Assembly (NCBI GenBank): GCA_963971405.1
Contig: OZ020485.1
Location: 42,963,469-43,027,468 of the forward strand
Reading direction: 5' to 3'
Source of the DNA: Psococerastis gibbosa
Lineage: Eukaryota > Arthropoda > Insecta > Psocodea > Psocidae
DNA length: 64,000 nt
The notes beneath the pieces are model-generated. The model ran no database searches. It was not told the DNA's origin and worked only from the letters and a program-made list of their open reading frames with translations. Below, piece by piece: positions 23,612 to 62,018 of the stretch. Made by a program: the position numbers and the translations under genes. The stretch's first letter is position 1. Every line of letters starts with the position of its first letter.

Positions 23612-23935
23612 CTAACGCCTGCTTTCAGTATTTCTGCTTTAAGCAACCCTGTCAGCCTGGCGGGGGGAGTGAGTCTGTTTGTTACCTTGAAGCACCCTAA
23701 GAGCAGACTCTTTCACCTCGGGGAAATTGGAGTTGACTAACAGGGTGGACCTCCTGATTATAGTGGATTCCGAACCACTTGGGGAACATGGTAAAGTCAC
23801 ACGATTAAATCGGAGGTGACCAGGACTCGACTTATACTGCCTAAGCGAGTTATCATGTCCCACCAGGTTCCCCTGCCAACGCTGTGCACACTACCAAGTT
23901 GCCGCAGTTTGAAACATGCTCTGCTCTAATGGAAT
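23612..23935 (-). repeat. interspersed repeat family C, long form
   Basis: Minus-strand copy of the family seen at 718 and 39800. Contains TAGTGGATTCCGAACCACTT (plus strand) and the CCCTGTCAGCCTGGCGGGG end. Confidence 0.75.
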
Positions 23936-24692: not shown

Positions 24693-25520
24693 GCCTTGTC
24701 ACGACTGCAGCAGTGTAGGCTGATCATGGCGAATTTAATACCGGGGTTAATATAATACCATATCACTTGATGTTATTAATTCAATTGTTTAAAATAAATG
24801 AACAGCAAATTTCAGAATTTTTTACTTTTTGATGTTGGTAATCGTCGCAAGAGTGCTATAAGCGCGGAAAATTAAAATTGTGTCTATTTAAACAATTGAA
24901 TGATCTTCGGCTATATTTTCTTCATTTTTCTGCCTTAGATTTAGACAAATTATTTATAATCCTTAATATAAATATATATTTCTGTTAAATTATACAATAC
25001 AAGTACAGGGCTTAGTAGTATGGTTGGACACAGTCCCAGGCCACGGTGTGGGCCCATAGGACAGGGGACCTCCTGACTATAGTGGATTCCGAACCACTTG
25101 GGAAACACAGTGAAGTCACACGATTAGCTCGGAGGTGACCAAGACAAGTCCTACCATGTTTCCCTACCGGCACTGTGCACATTTCCAAGTTATCTGCATC
25201 TATGAACCTACTCTGGTCCGTTGGGTACAAGTACAAGTAATTGACAAGAAAGTATAAAGTAAAATCGTCAATATATTAATTCAAAATTAAACGTTGTTTA
25301 TTTCTAGGGCGATATGAGTTTTTTATTGCTATTTATATTTGCTACGGCAGCATCGGCTGCGTCACGTCAGTTCAGTTCTTCAGTTTTACCACCATCACAA
25401 TTTAAAAAAATCTGAAATTTGCTGTTCACTTATTTTAAACAATTGAATTAACACCATCACGTGACATGGTATTATATTAACCCCGGTATTATAATCGCCA
25501 TGATCAGGCTGCTGGAGCGG
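24693..25520. mobile_element. ~830-bp inverted-repeat element (family I)
   Basis: Inverted arms of ~120 bp: left contains TACCGGGGTTAATATAATAC and AACAGCAAATTTCAGA, right contains the complements. A family C copy (25013-25228) sits inside. Related sequence is at 40348-40735, 49150-49740 and 62935-63115. TSD not resolved. Confidence 0.65.
25013..25228 (-). repeat. interspersed repeat family C, short form
   Basis: Nested in the family I element. The minus-strand frame contains VPVGKHGRTCLGHLRANRVT and FPSGSESTIVRR, matching other short copies at 31873, 57355, 58772 and 61617. Confidence 0.8.
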
Positions 25521-28735: not shown

Positions 28736-29325
28736 CTGCTGTCTGCATTATCTGTGTATACAAACGAACTATTCGATAGAATTTTCTGAAATTCTGCATG
28801 TAGGTCCATAAAAATATTTTTTTTTGATATTTCAGTTTTGGGGATCTGGGGATTTTGAGGGGTTTAAGAAACCCTCCCAAAACCGCCACGGAAACAAATT
28901 TCCCCAAAAACGGCACCAATTATGTCTTTTAAATTCACACATATTGTAGTACTTATTAGTGTAAACAAACCCCACTAGGTTACATCCTCCTTGATAGTCT
29001 GGTTCCATTGATGCTTTCTAACTTCTGGTACGCTTTATATAGGTGCTAAATAGAGAAACATAACCGAATAGGTCGCTTCTCCAACCAAGGTTTTGGTTTT
29101 GCAAAAAAAAATTTTTTTGGAGATAGCCTATAATGAACAATTCGAGCCCCAATGAATTTCATATACCTAGCATACAATTATTATTGTGTTGTATGACCTA
29201 CACTATATATTATTGGTCTGCCCATTCTAGACTATGTAATTGACCCATTTATCAATCCAGCGCTATAGGATAGGGAAAAATCTATAGGAAGCCTATACGT
29301 AAGCCAATTATTTACGATTAAACTA
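28736..29325 (+). repeat. diverged F2 repeat
   Basis: Ordered matches to F: TTTCTGAAATTCTGCATGTAGG, AACGGCACCAATTATGTC, TTGATAGTCTGGTTCC, GGTGCTAAATAGAG and the ATTGACCC-like end. Clearly older than the 13-17 kb copies. Confidence 0.6.
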
Positions 29326-29340
29326 TTGTATTACAGTACC

Positions 29341-31308
29341 TATGGAAGTCCGAAACAATGATAGACCACAAGCACGAAAAGAATGGATCACAGAGGAAAT
29401 CCTGGAGCTAATTGGGCAAAGGAGGGAAGCCAAAAAGGACAAATCGGAAGCAGGCCAAAGAAGGTATAAAACCTTGAGAAACAAGATTAACAAAGAATCG
29501 CGGCTTGTCAAGGAGTGCTACTACAAAGAGAAATGTCTTGAAATTGAGGAGCATATGGCGAAAGGAAACACAAGAAGTACAAGATGGCTAAGAGCTTCTT
29601 TAAGAATAAAAAGGGACAGTCGTCGGTGATCGAAAGCGCAGATGGGAAAATACTGTATGATGCCGATGCCATAAACAAAAGATGACAGGAATACATTGAA
29701 CAACTGTATGATGGAAATAGTGTTGTCAATGAGAATGAAATACTAGAAAACGAACCAGACGACAGTGAGTTAGGACACAACATACTTAGAGACGAATTCG
29801 ATCTAGCGGTAAAAAAGTTAAAAGCTAAAAAAGCCCCAGGAGTAGACGATATACCAGCAGAATTGTTAAAAAATATTGGGGAGAACTGCATGGAAGAGCT
29901 CTATAGACTGGTTTGTAAAATGTACAACACTGGCTGGATACCATGAGACTTTGAGAAGTGCGTTATTGTGGCACTGCCTAAGAAGGATGGGACCACCAAA
30001 TGTGAACAACATAGAACGCTCAGCCTAATCTCCCATGCGTCCAAGATCCTGACCAATATAATTCTAAAGAGAATAAATCCGATAATTGAAGAGCGATTAA
30101 CCCCAGACCAATTTGGGTTCCGCAATGGCAGAGGAACACGAGAAGCGATTGTATCACTAAGAGTACTGCTAGAAAGACTAAGAAGAAACCGTAGAACTTA
30201 TATCGGTTTTATTGACCTGGAGAAGGCCTTTGACAAAGTCCAATGAAAAAAGCTCTTCGAAATACTAAAAAAGTCTGGAGTCAAGCACAAGGACAGGAAA
30301 ATCATATGGACGCTATACAAGAATGAAGCGGTAGTCATAAGGTCTGGGACAGAAATTGGAGAGGCCAGAATACGTCAGGGGGTAAGACAGGGATGTTCGT
30401 TATCTCCGGCACTATTTAATATATACATACAAATGGCCTTAAACGAGATGAGAGAATCGCTGCTTGACGTATGAGGTGTGAGAGTGCAAGGGGCAAAAGT
30501 TGACATGATACGTTTCGCTGATGAAATTGCACTTATCGCTGACGACGCAGAGGAACTACAGCGTGCCTTAGAAACAATGCAGGACATATTGACAAGAGGA
30601 TATAATATGACCATAAATAAAAGCAAAACCAAAGTCATGGTTGTGAAGAATAAGAATGACATTAGCCAAGCATATGCATCCCTTGACAGAGTAGTTCTCA
30701 GCAGTGTCAAGCAATTTAAGTACCTGGGCAGCACAATAACAGAAGACAATAGCTCAGCGATTGAAATAAACAGCCGTATCCAACAAGCCAAGGTGGCATT
30801 CAATAAAAAATCCAAGATTCTGGAACCCTATGACATAAAACTAACCACCAGGAAGCAATTTCTAAAAAATTGGAAAGCAAAAACATGTGCTGTGTGGAGG
30901 GTTTTATTGTACGGCTGTGAAACCTGGACTATAGCAGATAAGGAACTAAAGAAACTCGAAGCTTTCGAAATGTGGTGTTACAGAAGGATGCTACGGATCA
31001 GCTGGAGGGACCATGTGACAAATGAAAGAGTGATTGACGCTATCGGGGAAGAAAGACAGTTAGTAGCCCAGATACGAATCAGGAGAGCGAAATGGATGGG
31101 GCATTTGCTAAGGCACGAAAATCTGGTACACACTATTATCGAGGGCACAGTAGAGGGAAATAACCGAAGAGGACGGCCGAAGAAGGAATTCATGGATCAA
31201 ATAAAAGAAGACGCAGGAGCAATATCATATCAAGAACTGAAGAGGAAGATCGAGGGCCGAGTAAACTGGAGGACGATATGCAGGGAGTTGCTGCCAACCA
31301 ATCGCTAA
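29341..31308 (+). pseudogene. non-LTR retrotransposon (LINE) ORF2, decayed
   Basis: Covers the RT domain and C-terminal region. Recognisable blocks in order: KKLKAKKAPGVDDIPAELLK; ALPKKDGTTKCEQHRTLSLI; DQFGFRNGRGTREAI; GFIDLEKAFDKVQ; GVRQGCSLSPALFNIY; catalytic box FADE in place of FADD; KQFKYLGSTIT; YGCETWTI; FEMWCYRRMLRISWRD; RPKKEFMDQIKED. The last 276 codons (30478-31308) are open. Upstream there is one frameshift near 29590 and four in-frame stops, all TGA, each where relatives usually have Trp (KR-W-QEYI, IP-W-DFEK, KVQ-W, DV-W-GV). The endonuclease domain is missing. It lies in the interval between the candidate 34.7 kb exon and the 27.7 kb exon. Inactive. Clade not assignable by eye. 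Confidence 0.92.
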
Positions 31309-31872: not shown

Positions 31873-32405
31873 GTAGTATGGTTGGACACAGTCCCAGGCC
31901 ACGGTGTGGGCCGATTGGAAAGGGGACCTCGTGATTATAGTGGATTCCGAACCCCTTGGGAAACACAGTAAAGTCACACGATTAGTTCGGAGGTGACCAG
32001 GACAAGTCCTACTGTTTCCGCTCGTACTCGGCGTACGGGGAAGGGTTGTGCTCTTGGTGTTGGAGAGAAGGAACCACACAGGTTGGATTCAAAAACTCGT
32101 CTCATATATTTTACAATTATAATTACATGGGCAAACGCCCCAATTACAGTACTGTGAGCCGATTGGTCCCCCACTCCAGTGCAATACCAACCACTACGTC
32201 AGTGGAGAAGGCAGTGGCGGATTAAGGCCCACCACATTCACTAATTTGGTTTATATTATATGAGTTTGTATGTTAGGCCAATTCCTGCTGGAAGTTGGCC
32301 TTAACACCTACCATGTTTCCCTACCGGCACTATGCACACTACCAAGTTATCTGCATCTTTGAACCTGCTCTGGTCCGCTTGATTCATTTTGGTAAGGCGA
32401 CCGGC
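31873..32405 (-). repeat. family C short form, interrupted by a solo LTR
   Basis: The two halves (31873-32012 and 32307-32405) join into a continuous family C copy once the 294-bp insertion is removed. Confidence 0.85.
32013..32306. mobile_element. solo LTR (294 bp)
   Basis: Begins TGTTTCCG and ends TTAACA, the TG...CA termini of LTRs. It is flanked by an exact 5-bp duplication CCTAC (32008-32012 and 32307-32311) and interrupts an otherwise continuous family C copy. No internal retroelement genes nearby, hence a solo LTR. Superfamily unknown. Confidence 0.8.
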
Positions 32406-39799: not shown

Positions 39800-40330
39800 A
39801 TAAACCGACAGCCAACGGCCAAGTTGAATCCTCCTGAACAGAGCCTGTTCCAAGCTGCGGCAAACTTGGTAGTGTGCGCAGCGTTGGCAGGGGGACACGG
39901 TGGGACATGATAACGTGCTGAGACTATACCAGTCAGTGTACAGGTAAGTGCGTGTCGGGTCGTGGACACCTCTGAATTAATCGTGTGACTTTACTATGTT
40001 CCCCAAGTGGTTCGGAATCCACTATAATTAAGAGGTACACCTTGTCAGTCAACTCCCTTTCTCCCCGAGGTGAAGGAGTCTGCCGCCCTCAAGGGCTGAT
40101 TTTAGGGGGGCAGGGGGTCTGGACCCCCTTAAATTAAATGAACTTACACTAGATAATATGGGTTTACAGTGGGAATTAAAAATAATAATGTTTTTTAATG
40201 TTATAATCTACTTAATCTGCCCGCTGCCCCCCCCCCCTAAATTGGAAGTAAAATCCGCCCTTGTCTTCCCTTAGGTTACCTCAAGTCAGGGTTGCTTAAA
40301 GCAGAAATGCAGAAAGCAGGCGTTGAAAAA
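39800..40330 (+). repeat. family C long form, interrupted by a MITE
   Basis: Same order of blocks as 718-1112. The CCCGAGGTGAAGGAGTCTGCC block is cut by an insertion at 40090-40263 and resumes as TTAGGTTACCTCAAG. Confidence 0.8.
40090..40263. mobile_element. hAT-like MITE nested in family C
   Basis: Ends CAAGGGCTGATTTTAG and AAAATCCGCCCTTG with subterminal GGGGGG and CCCCCCCCCC tracts. The target duplication is imperfect (GCCGCCCT versus TCTTCCCT), so the exact border is uncertain. Confidence 0.65.
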
Positions 40331-49740: not shown

Positions 49741-51865
49741 ATCCAAAATCACCATGGTTAAATATGTTATTAACCTGAATAATATTTCTTTAAATTTAGT
49801 TACAATTATTTACAGTACAGAGGCATAACTGTCGGCAGATCTCCCACCAGCTTCTTTTATTATGAATTCACTCCGTATGTGCGAATGACAGAACCTGCTT
49901 GCAGACGTCAATGACATACTGCAATAGTACATGCGACATACTGGGATGTACAATACAATACAATACAATACAATCATGCCCGGATTTACACAATTTTTTG
50001 GACTAGATCAAGAGACGAATTTGCGCCCCTCTCCCATAGACATATGTAACTTTCTTATGTTACTTTATTACACTAGTAGGTAATTATTAGCCTAATTTAG
50101 CAAGCAAAGGTAAACATTGATAGGCTAATTGACTCTCAAATATTGTCAAATATCCAATAAATTCTATAAATAATATTGTAAATGATACGAACTTTTTTAT
50201 TTTACATTTTCCATTAAAAATTGTGCTCTTTTGGAAATTGGGCCTAGGTCATCTGGGTTGTCCTTATGGGAGATCCGGCAAATCCGTATCAGAATACAAT
50301 ACAATTAAAATAAGTATCTTAATCAGGCTATCAATAATTTATCGCTGTTTTAGATTTCTTCAATAGTAGTAAGCCAATGCAATAGCCAATTTTTTTTCAT
50401 CTACCATAAAAAGAAAATGCCATATATACTGGTAACACGGTAAATTTATACGAAAAACAGCCTACTTCAGGAAAGTTTTGTTGGCTTCGAACTTTTTTCG
50501 TTTTTTTTTTAATGTTTTTTGGAGTGCTGAATTCACCCCAAAAAAAATTAAAAAAACAAAAAATTAAAAACATATAAACTAACTTTCAGTGGAAAAGTAC
50601 CTACTCATATACAGTATTATTGATGATCATTCCGCTAGGCTAGATTAAGTATACCTACCAACCTAACTCAAATGTATCACTTCACATCATACATTCTTTT
50701 TCCCCAAAATCATCTCAACGCTACGATAGTGCTAACATAGACTACTATTGGAAGGATTAGGCTCTGACTTTTAGAGCATCAAGCTGCTTGAGTCTGAAGT
50801 CCCTATTTATATTGAATTTATGTTTCATGGGTTTTGCCTCTTCTGGCTAATTTCATTATCTGTATAGAAATTGGATTGAATACGATTTCGACAAAACAAT
50901 ATGGTAATTATTATTCAATTCACGTGGCCAGCAAAGTTATGCATCTTGAATATTCCGTTTCAGCTTAAAATTTAGCATCAAATACTATCTATTTCATTCG
51001 TTTGGTCAAACCCGCTAAAATTAGTTACCGGTACAGTAAATATAGCCCTATCGGATTTGATTTAGTAAGCAACGAGACATTTGTAGTATGTGCCAGAAAA
51101 CTGGTCATTTACGATATGAAAAAAACAAATGAAGAGTATATTGTCATTTGGTGAGCTGCAATCAGTATTTGGTAAGATACGATATTTGGTAAACTTCCTC
51201 GTATGATAACTACTCTTCTGGCGTTTAATAACTTATTTGACCTTTTTATATTTTAATTATTAGGTACAGTAGGTAAGTAACTTATACTGTATCAGTCAAT
51301 GTCCAGGGTTTGCTCATTATACTGTTCTAGTGGTCTCGGTGAACTTTGAACCATCCATAACAGTCAATAAATATCGTGTTTGCAATTTCAATTGTCCCTA
51401 TTTCGCATTACATCCACTAATACACAGCTAAGATATATGTATAGACCTAACCCCAATCAGGCAACACTCCAAGTTCATGGGAGAGGTTGTCCAGTGATGT
51501 ACTATCAAAAATTAAAATGATATAGGCTACAAATTACAGGAGGGTAAAAACGCTAAACACATCGAATTTTAGATACGGTACCGCAGTTAATCCATTAAGC
51601 ATACAATATACCAAATACAACTACATTGATCAATTGTACAAGGATATCGAAATTTCGAATCATCGATAATTTTCATATGGGTAGGTATTCTCATAAAATT
51701 TAGGCAAATTTTCATACGGGTATATGAAAATATGAAATTTCTGCGTAAAACGATAATAAAACGTAATATCGACTTTTTGTGTTAATTATGCATTTGATAC
51801 TTTTTGGATGATCAACGCTCCGAGTAGTTCTTAACATTTTTGACATGACAAGGTAGACTTTAATT
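49741..51865. other. no gene; (AATAC)n at ~49956-49975
   Basis: About 2.1 kb of AT-rich unassigned sequence with a short AATAC pentamer array. Confidence 0.4.
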
Positions 51866-52060
51866 TATTCAACATAATAATGGACCTAGTTAGCGTTTCA
51901 ACCAGTTTGACAGTTTCAGATATTTCGTACACCCAATGCCACTGAAAGTTGCCCTAAAGAACTCAACGAATCTCGACGACGTCAGTGTCTTTGAAGATGC
52001 GCCAAAGCCAGAATGAGAGCAAACCAACGGCTTTGAGGACACCGTTAGTGAGGCACTAGC
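51866..52060 (+). pseudogene. inverted, decayed copy of Osiris exon 2 and its acceptor
   Basis: Plus-strand sequence repeats the intron flank and first part of the minus-strand exon at 59056-59404: TTCAACATAATAATGGACC, then the acceptor region GACAGTTTCAGATATT, then CACCCAATGCCACTGAAAGT and AACGGCTTTGAGGACAC. The copy lacks ~50 bp after GATATT and has an in-frame TGA (after GCGCCAAAGCCAGAA). It is cut off after GTTAGTGAGGC. It lies ~0.7 kb beyond the gene's own poly(A) signal and in opposite orientation. Nonfunctional by inspection. Confidence 0.85.
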
Positions 52061-52789: not shown

Positions 52790-52795
52790 TTTATT
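52790..52795 (-). terminator. Osiris poly(A) signal AATAAA
   Basis: AATAAA on the minus strand in GTGCAATAAATTG, 82 bases after the stop that ends the extension frame and ~490 bases after the first stop. Its placement favours a terminal exon containing the whole extension. Confidence 0.6.
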
Positions 52796-52877: not shown

Positions 52878-53285
52878 CTATCGGACTTGCGATAGAATCG
52901 CTGCAACATCAAGGCTCTCATCCTGCACTTTCTGTTCTTTATTCTCTGTTGCAGCTCCTTCCTGAACTTCCTCCTTTTCTAGGTCTCTTAGACTGATTCT
53001 TTCCGGCTGCGCTGGTTGATAAACCGGAAAAGGCGGGAAATTTGGATTTGGATTATATCCCGCAAAATTTGAAAGTCCATAATTGCTATAATACCCTGTT
53101 AGACTTGGATTCGTGAACTGGTTGTAATAATTTAAGTATGGATATTGAGGATTGAGGGACTGATAATAAGGGTTAAATAAATGTGGTCTAGGTTTAGGTC
53201 TACGAGGTCGGGAAAAACGAGAAGGTTCTTTTTCAGCAGAAGCAAAAAACGTCCAGTATATCCAGTCAAACAGGGAAAAATCTAG
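52878..53285 (-). CDS. in-frame extension after the Osiris TAG (readthrough candidate)
   Basis: Directly after the TAG at 53286-53288, the same frame stays open for 135 codons to TAG at 52878-52880. It begins LDFSLFDWIYWTFF, a hydrophobic aromatic stretch. Next comes a basic Pro-rich part (PSRFSRPRRPKPRPHLF), a Tyr/Asn/Pro-rich low-complexity part (NPYYQSLNPQYPYLNYY, NPNPNFPPFPVY) and a charged end (LRDLEKEEVQEGA, DESLDVAAILSQVR). The composition is protein-like, not intron-like. The stop context is TAG-CTA-GAT, i.e. stop followed by CTAG, known as readthrough-promoting for UGA in animals. A short intron removing the TAG was checked. The only passable donor (GAGTATCT) does not rejoin this frame at the available AGs. 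Alternatives: an allelic nonsense mutation, an assembly error or an unseen splice. Confidence 0.6.
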   Translation of the reverse strand, partial: LDFSLFDWIYWTFFASAEKEPSRFSRPRRPKPRPHLFNPYYQSLNPQYPYLNYYNQFTNPSLTGYYSNYGLSNFAGYNPNPNFPPFPVYQPAQPERISLRDLEKEEVQEGAATENKEQKVQDESLDVAAILSQVR

Positions 53286-53587
53286 CTATAGATACTCGCC
53301 GGGACTTCCTTTGATTTTGAAAAGTTTATCGTGGAAGCCGTGGTGATGATCGTGCTGGTGAGCCTCTGGTCCTGTATGGTAGAACCCGTAGCCCACCTGA
53401 CTGGTCGCAATTTTCTTAAGACCATTGATGGCAGACATAATAAGGGCCATTTTTGCCATCAAAAGTGATTTTCCCCCTAAAACTGTGAGGAATTGAAAAC
53501 CCATAGGAATCAAAATTGTTGCCATAACCATAAATCCCATGACCATCATGGCGAACATTTTGTATTCTCGTCTTCTTTTTCCTCGCC
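53286..53587 (-). CDS. Osi: Osiris-family protein, last main exon (DUF1676 core)
   Basis: The acceptor TTTGTTTACAG precedes 53587. The split codon with the upstream exon gives Gly (G+GG). It reads GRGKRRREYKMFAMMVMGFM, VMATILIPMGFQFLTVLGGK, SLLMAKMALIMSAINGLKKI, then a His-rich tail (HQHDHHHGFHDKLFKIK) and EYL before TAG. The basic G-[KR]-G-[KR] lead, Met/Ile-rich hydrophobic helix, LxxLGGKxLLxxKxAL and GLKK motifs are the core of the Osiris (DUF1676) family. These are insect proteins with a signal peptide and a hydrophobic segment, linked to cuticle-secreting epithelia and endosomal or secretory traffic. The typical C-terminal AQxLAY motif is absent before the TAG. Main-frame protein ~379 residues. 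Confidence 0.93.
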
Positions 53588-53899: not shown

Positions 53900-53907
53900 A
53901 GAACGGC

Positions 53908-54091
53908 CAAGGCCGTAGCCTGGATTTTTTTCGGGGGGGGGGGGGGGGTCTCAAAAATTTCATTGATATTACATAGTAGTTTCTATTTTTTTTTCCTCTC
54001 AAAATCCGATTCTATCTAGTGTCAAGCCATTTCATTTCGGGTGGGGGGGGGGGGATTTGAACCCCCATGAACCCCCCTGGCTACGGCCTTG
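53908..54091. mobile_element. hAT-type MITE with poly-G tracts
   Basis: Ends CAAGGCCGTAGCCTGGA and TGGCTACGGCCTTG. Exact duplication AGAACGGC at 53900-53907 and 54092-54099. G tracts at about 53934-53948 and 54042-54053. Lies in the Osiris intron between exons 3 and 4. Confidence 0.92.
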
Positions 54092-56325: not shown

Positions 56326-56615
56326 CTTCCATAGCAGTGTCTTTAAGTGAAAACTTCATAGTGTGCGACTCGAGGAGTTTCGCCATCCTGTCCAGCAGCA
56401 GTGTGCTCCAGTCGTTGTCGACTATCTCCGAGACGTATTGACTGCTGACACGACCGTTTTCATGATGGTGCCACGGTAGATTGAGCCTGCCATTGATGGC
56501 GCTGCTACCCAAATTAAAAATCTGAGACTCTCTGTCCAACGACCGACCGTCCCGAACGAGGTCAGCAAATTCAGTTACGGGAATTCTATCTTCTTTGATG
56601 ACGTTATCGAGGTAC
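56326..56615 (-). CDS. Osi: Osiris-family protein, exon 3
   Basis: The acceptor ATTTTCTGTAG precedes 56615 and the donor GTACGT follows 56326. Phase in 2, phase out 1; both junctions keep frame. It reads YLDNVIKEDRIPVTEFADLV, RDGRSLDRESQIFNLG and a WHHHENGRVSS patch, ending LLESHTMKFSLKDTAMEG. The [FY]-LD-x-[AV]-I-x-x-D-x-I-P-[LV]-T-[DE]-x-x-x-LVRDG motif directly after the upstream CLK block is diagnostic of Osiris proteins. The KFSL-D segment leads into the basic and hydrophobic core of the next exon. Confidence 0.93.
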
Positions 56616-56639: not shown

Positions 56640-57061
56640 TTTAATCTTAAGAGAACATGCTTCGTTGAAAATTAGCACCCCGAAATTAATTTTATTGTTT
56701 TTATTGTTTTTTTTTTTTTTAATTGACAAAGCAAGTTAGAATGATTTGGCCCATGTAAGTTTTAGAAGTCTACTCCATTCACCAGATAATAGGAAATGTT
56801 AAATTGTTTGTACCTTAATTCTGTCATAAAAACCATTGGGGACTAAAATTTCGGGTAAAATATAATTTTTGGAAAAACTACAAAACCGAAAAGTAAAAAT
56901 ACCCAATGCATGAACAATTAGTTTCTACAACTTTCATGAGCCAAATTTTTAATAACCTACTGAATTAATGAAATAAAACATGAAATGTATTTAATGTTGG
57001 GGTGCCAATTTCCTACGTAGCTCTTAATGATTATGAAAGTAAATTCAAAATTGAGGTTTCG
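56640..57061. other. Osiris intron, nothing recognised
   Basis: AT-rich intronic sequence. Confidence 0.4.
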
Positions 57062-57190
57062 CTTAGGCGGCTATTCCACTTGTCAATATTCCGTCATTTG
57101 TGCATCAATAATTGATGAGATGACATAGAGTAAAGAAAAAATCTCATCAATTATTGAAGAAAAATTGACAAGTGGAATAGCCGCCTTAGC
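57062..57190. mobile_element. MITE family E, complete copy
   Basis: CTTAGGCGGCTATTCCACTT and its complement AAGTGGAATAGCCGCCTTAG bound ~130 bp, with inner inverted TCAATAATTGATGAGAT and ATCTCATCAATTATTGA. In the Osiris intron. Confidence 0.88.
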
Positions 57191-57354: not shown

Positions 57355-57600
57355 GTAGTAGTAGCATGGTTTGACACAGTCCCAGGCCACGGTGTGGGCC
57401 CATAGGACTCCAGTGGACCTCCTGATTATAGTGGATTCCGAACCACTTGGGAAACACAGTGAAGTCACACGATTACTTCGGAGGTGACCAGGACAAATCC
57501 TACCATGTTTCCCTACCGGCACTGTGCACACGACCAATTTATCTGCAGCTCTGAACCTGCTCTGGTCCGCTGGATTCAACTTGGTATGGCGGCCGGCTAG
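57355..57600 (-). repeat. family C short form
   Basis: Contains TAGTGGATTCCGAACCACTT and CCTACCATGTTTCCCTACCG. Its right end runs into a 243-bp tandem array. Confidence 0.82.
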
Positions 57601-58085
57601 GACAAATATTAAGTAAGTTAAATAATTCTGGTGCTATATATTGGTAGGATTTGGTAAAATTTGCTATGTATGCACTTGGTACTACAAGGTGCTCAATTCT
57701 TCTAGTATTTGCTGGTCTAGGCCCATAAAGTAAATTCACCTGATGTTTTATTATAGGCTTATTTATATGCACACGACCAATTTATCTGCAGCTCTGAACC
57801 TGCTCTGGTCCGCTGGATTCAACTTGGTATGGCGGCCGGCTAGGACAAATATTAAGTAAGTTAAATAATTCTGGTGCTATATATTGGTAGGATTTGGTAA
57901 AATTTGCTATGTATGCACTTGGTACTACAAGGTGCTCAATTCTTCTAGTATTTGCTGGTCTAGGCCCATAAAGTAAATTCACCTGATGTTTTATTATAGG
58001 CTTATTTATATGCACACGACCAATTTATCTGCAGTTTTGAACCTGCTCTGGTCCGCTGGATTCAACTTGGTATGGCGGCCGGCCA
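57531..58085 (-). repeat. 243-bp tandem duplication (2.3 units)
   Basis: Units 57531-57773 and 57774-58016 appear identical base for base. A partial third unit at 58017-58085 differs at a few sites. Each unit encodes on the minus strand YGPRPANTRRIEHLVVPSAY and then SYQYIAPELFNLLN. This resembles the C-terminal tail of CR1/Jockey-type reverse transcriptases (xxLVVP...F..APxLWNxLP). A single related module follows the family C copy at 61617. Confidence 0.85.
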
Positions 58086-58223
58086 ATGTAATCTAACTAA
58101 GCCTGAGGACTATATTAGAGGATCCTCTCTCTCAGCCACTGCTCTATTTGAGATGTTGTGGTCAGCAACATGAAACATGCCGCGTTTTTGCCTTGGCAAT
58201 TAAGGAATGGTTCCCATAAGGGT

Positions 58224-58771: not shown

Positions 58772-59013
58772 CCGGCCGCCTTACCAAGTTGAATCCAGCT
58801 GACTAAAGCAGGTTCAAAGATGCAGATAACTTGGTAGTGTGCACAGTGCCGGTAGGGAAACATGGTAGGACTTGTCCTGGTCACCTCCGAACTAATCGTG
58901 TGACTTCACTGTGTTTCCCAAGTGGTTCGGAATCCATTATAATCAGGAGGTCCCCTGTCCTATGGGCCCACACCGTGGCCTGGGACTGTGTCCAACCATA
59001 CTACCTCTACATA
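58772..59013 (+). repeat. family C short form
   Basis: Plus-strand copy: VPVGKHGRTCPGHLRTNRVT and FPSGSESIIIRRS, then WAHTVAWDCVQPYY. Ends ~40 bp from the Osiris exon 2 donor. Confidence 0.82.
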
Positions 59014-59055: not shown

Positions 59056-59404
59056 CTGAAAGACTGGACCTTAAGACAATGATACAACAGGACAACGTAT
59101 TCCTTCAGCTGTATTAGGTCTTTTTCAGTACTGCCTTTAGAAAACTTCCAGTTAAGGACTGACTCCACCCTTTTGCTGATTTTGTGGCTACATTCTTGGT
59201 ATATGTCGGCAAATGTCGTGACAGTGTCCTCAAAGCCGTTGGTTTGCTCCCTCTCTGGCTGTGGCGCGTCTTCAGGGACACTGACGTCGTCGAGATTCGT
59301 CGAGTTCTTTAGGGCAACTTTCAGTGGCATTGGGTGTACGATGATGGGCTTGAAATCCTTAATAATATCATTGTCTTCTACAGCATTGTCATTAATATCT
59401 GAAA
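59056..59404 (-). CDS. Osi: Osiris-family protein, exon 2
   Basis: The acceptor GGTTTTACAG precedes 59404 and the donor GTAAGA follows 59056. Phase in 1 (G+TT = Val), phase out 2 (AG+G = Arg). It reads VSDINDNAVEDNDIIKDFKP, PLKVALKNSTNLDDVSVPED, an acidic linker, then TFADIYQECSHKISKRVESV and LLYHCLKVQSF. The paired cysteines (ECS... HCLK) followed by SFRYLD across the junction are the two-Cys region that precedes the LxRFLD motif in Osiris proteins. The stretch before the first Cys is longer and more acidic than usual. A decayed inverted copy of the first half lies at 51866-52060. Confidence 0.9.
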
Positions 59405-60582: not shown

Positions 60583-60781
60583 CTTCACTGCGTAAAGATT
60601 TTCCAACAACTTCCTTCCTAACAGGGCTCTGTAGTAAGGTATTGACGACGCTGTAATTCACTGTATCCAACGAAGGTTCTCCTGCCACGACACAAAACAC
60701 CACTACTGCCACTGCTGTGGACACTAGCATTGCCACCCGAACCATAGCCAGCACCGAACAGACTGTTGAAAACGTCAACAT
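60583..60781 (-). CDS. Osi: Osiris-family protein, exon 1 (signal peptide)
   Basis: ATG at 60781 opens MLTFSTVCSVLAMVRVAMLV. A second in-frame ATG (Met13, 60745) gives MVRVAMLVSTAVAVVVFCVV followed by AGEPSLD, a textbook signal peptide with cleavage after the hydrophobic run. The rest (VNYSVVNTLLQSPVRKEVVG) leads to donor GTGGGA after 60583, phase 1 out. A TATAAAA at 60792-60798 places the likely transcription start near 60767, downstream of the first ATG. I therefore prefer Met13 as the real start. Confidence 0.85.
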
Positions 60782-61341: not shown

Positions 61342-61612
61342 TATTAAATATAGAACAATTTAAATACAATAATTGTAAAGCCCCACATGAAGGCCTATAA
61401 CAATTTACTGTACTCTAAAACTAAAGAAAAAAAATGCAATTAGACTTAATTTAACTTATTAAACTACACTTACATATTAATAACAGATCTCTCGTAAACA
61501 CATAACAGTCTAGTCCACTATTTCAAATAAAGATTCCACCTCTTCCCGTCTCATCAGCCATTCCCGGACGAATTTGGAAAATTTATTTATTGACCGCGAC
61601 CCAGGACAAATA
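61342..61612. other. no gene seen
   Basis: AT-rich upstream flank. Confidence 0.3.
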
Positions 61613-61616
61613 TTAG

Positions 61617-62018
61617 TAGTAGTATGGTTTGACACAGTCCCAGGCCGCGGTGTGGGCCCATAGGACTCCAGTGGACCTCCTGATTATAGTGGATTCCGAA
61701 CCACTTGGGAAACACAGTGAAGTCACACGATTAGTTCGGAGGTGACCAGGACAAGTCCTACCATGTTTCCCTACCGGCACTGTGCACACGACCAATTTAT
61801 CTGCAGCTCTGAACCTGCTCTGGTCCGCTGGATTCAACTTGGTATGGCGGCCGGCTAGGACAAATATTAAGTAAGTTAAATAATTTTGGTGCTATATATT
61901 GGTAGGATTTGGTAAAATTTGCTATGTACTTGGTACTACAAGGTGCTCAATTCTTCTAGTATTTGCTGGTCTAGGCCCATAAAGTAAATTCACCTGATGT
62001 TTTATTATAGGCTTAACT
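61617..62018 (-). repeat. family C short form plus LINE-tail module
   Basis: 61617-61860 is a C copy and 61791-62018 is a single unit of the module that is tandemly duplicated at 57531. Here it is colinear and unduplicated, the likely ancestral arrangement. Confidence 0.82.

Follow-up and report, generated by a model that had tools for sequence, protein, structure and literature searches.

UAG readthrough has been proven in the Drosophila gene drifter/vvl (dfr), where the UAG is decoded as glutamine and a 286-residue extension is added to the protein (PMC8417969), with a stem-loop aiding the process (PMC13170385). That gene is intronless, its stop lies in a CAAUCA context, and its readthrough is kept across Diptera and backed by mass-spectrometric proof. 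The vertebrate genes OPRL1, OPRK1, MAPK10, and AQP4 carry UGA directly followed by CUAG, a motif that four human genes require for their UGA to be read through, and the extensions of MAPK10 (13 residues) and AQP4 (typically 28) are short (PMC4132726). Swapping the OPRL1 stop from UGA to UAG in the human CUAG context lowered readthrough ~3-fold (PMC4132726), and in leakiness UAG is intermediate between the other two stop codons, UGA and UAA (PMC13170385, PMC8417969). Insect readthrough candidates mostly end in UGA; in flies and mosquitoes, 49-63% of candidates have C as the next base, and for 9% of the mosquito set a conserved RNA structure is predicted in the first 100 nt after the stop (Jungreis et al. 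2016, PMC5100048). According to FlyBase curators, most extensions measure 8-300 residues, the longer among them often with low-complexity, disorder-like regions, and in many species only UGA readthrough has been observed, which is unhelpful to a UAG case (PMC4528330).

The locus described here belongs to a different setting, the Osiris family, whose proteins shape insect cuticle nanostructures (PMC12755865, PMC11151929). Five features of Osiris proteins were listed by Shah et al. (PMC3284338): a signal peptide, a two-cysteine feature, DUF1676, a putative transmembrane domain, and an AQXLAY motif with nearby tyrosines. Literature searches, and the main texts of readthrough and annotation papers, turned up no link between Osiris genes and readthrough.

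Within the 64,000-nucleotide stretch of Psococerastis gibbosa DNA analysed here (the window), we found an Osiris gene on the minus strand, in which four exons, connected with phases 1, 2, and 1, give a 377-aa open reading frame (ORF1) ahead of a TAG stop. Exon ends were deduced from phase, and all junctions had GT and AG ends with compatible phases. Exon A (60583-60781, minus strand), reconstructed in phase and with hydropathy, contains the start ATG and the signal peptide and ends at the donor GAAG/GTGGGA. The in-phase reconstruction also gave exon B (59056-59398, minus strand; donor TTTCAG/GTAAGA), which carries Cys136 and Cys174, and, together with Pfam, exon C (56326-56615, minus strand; donor GGAAG/GTACGT), which encodes the bulk of the first two thirds of DUF1676. 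Exon D (53286-53587, minus strand) encodes the end of DUF1676, two hydrophobic helices, and a His-rich tail, and includes the TAG.

Four of the five Osiris features were present in this protein. DUF1676 (PF07898) matched residues 172-336 (E=8.2e-30; 104.5 bits against a cut-off of 24.3) and was already recognizable in the single 125-codon stop-to-stop frame ending at 53289 (E=1.6e-14). Hydropathy placed a putative N-terminal hydrophobic signal peptide in residues 1-42 (KD19 peak 2.63). The two cysteines are separated by 38 residues, one shortly before DUF1676 and the other at its start. A putative transmembrane domain peaked at residues 285-322 (KD19 2.16) in a hydrophobic region spanning 285-337, and a single-sequence structure model placed two helices there with block-mean pLDDT of 71-96. 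The missing feature was AQXLAY, which had no strict or relaxed match in ORF1 or the sequence that follows it, so Osiris membership rests on DUF1676 and the layout. Compared with family members such as Gore-tex/Osi23, the gene shares the signal peptide, the two cysteines, DUF1676, and the membrane region, but lacks AQXLAY and has a stop codon ahead of a Tyr-rich tail. We consider its identity as a complete Osiris-family member well supported. No solved structure resembled exon D convincingly (best E=0.033). Among prokaryote contigs, which are not expected to contain insect genes, exon D found only a 20-residue match over its His-rich stretch, in a bacterial bin, and this was taken as chance.

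ORF1 closes with the residues ...GSPGEYL and a TAG (53286-53288, minus strand) that is directly followed by CTAG. The same frame then stays open for 135 codons (52881-53285, minus strand) until a second TAG (52878-52880, minus strand), and an AATAAA polyadenylation-type signal (52790-52795, minus strand) begins at 52795, 82 bases past this second stop. A further AATAAA occurs within the extension at 52943. The extension has no Met and no Cys, includes 16 Pro, 12 Tyr, and 11 Asn, and contains the peptide sequences EEVQEGAATENK and VQDESLDVAAILSQVR. It begins with a hydrophobic/aromatic part and continues through a basic Pro-rich part and a Tyr/Asn/Pro-rich part to an acidic end. The preliminary description, which had reported an Osiris gene whose DUF1676 exon ends in TAG-CTAG, the open codons beyond it, their layout, and the nearby AATAAA, is correct on these points. 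Among the 1966 TAG triplets in the window, 380 are directly followed by C, 32 by CTA, and 9 by CTAG. A Pfam search of the extension returned nothing up to E=10, TRF gave a single row (a 6-base unit repeated 2.5 times), and Rfam gave one sub-threshold match (E=0.11). Neither the extension nor exon D had relatives in viral contigs, a collection not expected to hold insect genes. When exon D and the extension were modelled together from the single sequence with the TAG as Gln, mean pLDDT was 57.5, most extension blocks fell below 60, and helices at 103-118 and 199-233 had low confidence; the extension is probably mostly disordered.

The intron that separates exons B and C has, as noted by eye, an inverted repeat at 57060-57190 in which AAGGCGGCTATTCCACTTGTCAAT and its complement flank an AT-rich centre; it looks like a small mobile element. 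Also noted by eye in this intron were near-identical direct copies of a ~240-base unit starting GGCCGCCATACCAAGTTGAATCC at 57600-58100. A ~105-base repeat at 58900-59004 recurs at 25015-25119, 31873-31977, 57355-57468, and 61610-61726, with shorter matches at 911-962, 23740-23800, and 39985-40036. The intron upstream of exon D contains, at 53900-54090 and also noted by eye, two long G runs between AAGGCCGTAGCC and its complement GGCTACGGCCTT. Farther away, a reverse transcriptase ORF of a LINE-like element lies on the plus strand at 30475-31305 (RVT_1, E=2.1e-10), and open pieces at 29303-30243 (plus strand) may belong to the same element. An inverted, degenerate partial copy of exon B and its acceptor region (~92% identical) is found on the plus strand at 51863-52045, ~0.7 kb past the gene's AATAAA; it matches 59455-59394 and 59341-59221, lacks the 52 bases between these pieces, and has an in-frame stop. 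A transcript extending beyond the polyA site would carry both inverted-repeat arms.

To judge whether the extension is coding, we compared it with simulated open frames and with the gene's own codon usage. Its period-3 asymmetry (chi-square 26.8 vs. a null mean of 7.3) was reached by only 1 of 3000 open frames simulated from non-coding DNA and by 0 of 3000 simulated from the extension's own composition. Amino acid composition pointed the same way under both nulls. Pro, Tyr, Asn, and Gln together numbered 48, compared with 25.2 expected under the non-coding null (0/3000) and 29 under the own-composition null (1/3000). Pro by itself (16) exceeded the 6.9 (P=0.002) and 9.8 (P=0.03) expected, respectively, and the complete absence of Cys and Met compared with 6.5 (2/3000, P=0.0007) and 3.9 (P=0.02). 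The period-3 signal differed along the extension, with P=0.13 for codons 1-42, 0.03 for codons 43-95, and 0.003 for codons 96-135, although this test is weak at block length, as exon D, which is surely coding, reached only P=0.10. The last block also scored 0.405 bits per codon in frame 0 vs. 0.016 and -0.027 in the other sense frames.

Other measures did not separate the extension from its non-coding surroundings. Its GC3 (41/135, 30%) was lower than that of ORF1 (196/377, 52%; p=1.4e-5) and exon D (46/99; p=0.014) and lay near the non-coding GC of 37%. A codon model trained on ORF1 gave the whole extension -0.154 bits per codon, not distinguishable from non-coding DNA (mean -0.196, sd 0.093, 515 windows), and two of the extension's five other frames scored higher (-0.061 and -0.021). 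This codon test was itself weak, since left-out exons scored in frame were also low for A (-0.18) and D (-0.17), with B at 0.09 and C at 0.08. The coding signal was strong in the last 40 codons and did not reach significance in the first 42. Overall, we regard the extension as very likely coding, a conclusion that is moderately supported.

The single reading that ranks first, before alternative splicing, a nonsense mutation or faulty assembly, and chance, is that the locus is a candidate for UAG readthrough, a view that we hold tentatively and as nearly evenly balanced. ORF1 would then end at a leaky UAG-CUAG, where a minority of ribosomes would insert an amino acid, glutamine by analogy with dfr, and the longer product would carry 135 further residues, probably mostly disordered, as a tail after the membrane region. 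Like dfr, the gene has UAG followed by C and a long in-frame extension. It differs from dfr in its CUAG context and its lack of stable structure, and it is known from a single sequence. With the vertebrate genes it shares CUAG directly 3′ of the stop, but the stop here is UAG, the less leaky codon in the OPRL1 swap, and the extension is far longer than those of MAPK10 and AQP4. The context has the C and CTAG of leaky stops, but with TAG rather than the typical TGA. The length and the low-complexity, disorder-like character of the extension fit the FlyBase curators' account. No stable RNA structure was predicted 3′ of the stop (z=+0.85; 161 of 200 shuffles folded at least as well), which is the usual situation because so few mosquito candidates have a predicted conserved structure; readthrough does not require one. 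The readthrough isoform proposed in the preliminary description gains from the open frame, the coding signal, and the C/CTAG context, and loses from the missing structure, the UAG stop, and splice pairs that could remove the TAG.

These splice pairs underlie the strongest rival, which we nevertheless judge unlikely: an intron in the last exon would remove the TAG from some mRNAs, and no readthrough would be needed. The likeliest intron runs from a donor at 53396 to an acceptor at 53159 (intron 53160-53396, minus strand; 237 nt; CAG/GTGGGC ... TTATTATCAG/TCC), after which the tail would be translated normally from SLNPQYPY onward. Both sites are canonical and keep the frame, and their scores under generic, untrained matrices sum to 8.6 (3.5 + 5.1); on this scale the three introns inferred for the gene itself reach 6.3, 12.8, and 11.0. 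This intron would also explain the poor coding signal in codons 1-42, as it would cut them out and leave the remainder, which has the signal. However, an in-frame GT-AG pair scoring at least 8.6 also arose when the codons were shuffled synonymously (226 of 1000) or in their order (86 of 1000), so the pair is weak evidence. The stretch of exon D before the TAG that would be lost encodes a protein-like His-rich tail beside the membrane region; both this tail and the openness of codons 1-42, expected by chance in ~9% of cases in non-coding DNA, would need another reason.

Two GC-AG pairs share a donor at 53299 and would likewise keep the frame. The longer (53012-53299, minus strand; 288 nt; CCG/GCGAGT ... 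CAACCAG/CGC) resumes at 53011, has the top raw score of all in-frame pairs listed (9.55), and retains approximately codons 92-135, where the coding signal is strongest. The shorter (53228-53299, minus strand; 72 nt) resumes at 53227 with a raw score of 7.2. However, GC donors make up ~1% of introns, and the raw scores ignore this rarity. A GT donor at 53295 was poor (-3.0), and a U12-type reading of its GTATCT, judged by eye against the consensus, was rejected because the acceptor that would suit it, at 53159, does not keep the frame. We also rejected a splice from exon C to a different last exon, as the best phase-1 acceptor (53011; 3.76) would remove both the membrane region and the greater part of the extension.

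A recent nonsense mutation, a polymorphism, or an assembly error is an improbable explanation, in which the ancestral protein was continuous at ~513 residues and the TAG is new or wrong. The openness and coding signal would then remain just as seen, and the planthopper Nilaparvata lugens has some long Osiris proteins, among them Osiris23 (495 aa) and Osiris15 (448 aa), for which DUF1676 is the sole listed domain (PMC12825958) and whose lengths are not far from the 513 codons here. However, the CTA context, so scarce after the window's TAGs, and CTAG, scarcer still, would be a coincidence under this explanation, and the low GC3 suggests that the extension evolved differently from ORF1.

We give a similarly low, and no higher, probability to chance, under which the extension would be 3′ UTR sequence, untranslated and open by accident. 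How surprising 135 open codons are depends on the model. The probability was 1.5e-4 in a second-order Markov model of the gene's introns and 3′ flank (20,000 simulations) and 0.0045 under a model of the extension's own composition. In the window itself, counting both strands, all frames, and mobile-element ORFs, 7 of 7656 stop codons were followed by at least 135 open codons. Open runs of at least this length followed 0.15% of 62,052 non-exonic starts on the minus strand and 0.40% of the 16,629 that were GC-matched, where start positions overlap and include mobile-element ORFs. Given the spread of these estimates, the length of the extension by itself is suggestive rather than conclusive, and at 0.15-0.40%, a genome with many thousands of genes will hold some such cases. 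GC3 and the ORF1-trained scores, which look non-coding, also suit this explanation. Against it stand the period-3 asymmetry, the lack of Cys and Met, the coding-like acidic end, and an enrichment in Pro, Tyr, Asn, and Gln that was almost never simulated even under the stricter null. An independent downstream ORF was rejected because the extension has no Met, which excludes AUG initiation inside it, and an antisense gene was rejected because the antisense frames contain 8, 11, and 6 stops.

If the UAG is read through, the location of the added tail bears on its possible function. In HA-gox-Flag, a tagged Gore-tex/Osi23, the C-terminal Flag side is labelled cytoplasmic and the HA side ER-luminal (PMC12755865). 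By analogy, the extension would probably be a cytoplasmic tail, which makes matrix or cuticle binding unlikely and argues against the new binding properties of this kind that the preliminary description had suggested. A tracheal study described Osi proteins with a cytoplasmic domain, the AQXLAY motif, and a YXX-hydrophobic targeting motif (PMC9870157). The extension contains four motifs resembling YXX-hydrophobic tyrosine-sorting signals (YWTF, YQSL, YPYL, and YNQF) and one resembling an acidic dileucine signal (DVAAIL), compared with no YXX-hydrophobic motif in the 40-residue tail of the short form and four elsewhere in ORF1. Still, the four motifs were not significantly enriched over shuffled extensions (2.5 on average, P=0.23), so a trafficking switch is a hypothesis only.

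The most likely effect of the long isoform would be to alter the trafficking or the protein contacts of the short cytoplasmic tail. A more specific version seems quite doubtful, namely that cuticle-secreting cells use a conserved UAG-CUAG readthrough switch to append a cytoplasmic tail bearing several tyrosine-based sorting motifs and so reroute the membrane protein. A fraction of the protein would then take another ER, plasma-membrane, or endosome route during the formation of cuticle nanostructures.

At present, the locus is one more single-sequence candidate in a group of animals where readthrough is already known to be abundant. If real, readthrough would diversify an Osiris protein in a novel manner, through a long-tailed isoform, and would provide an extra UAG example among insect candidates that mostly use UGA.
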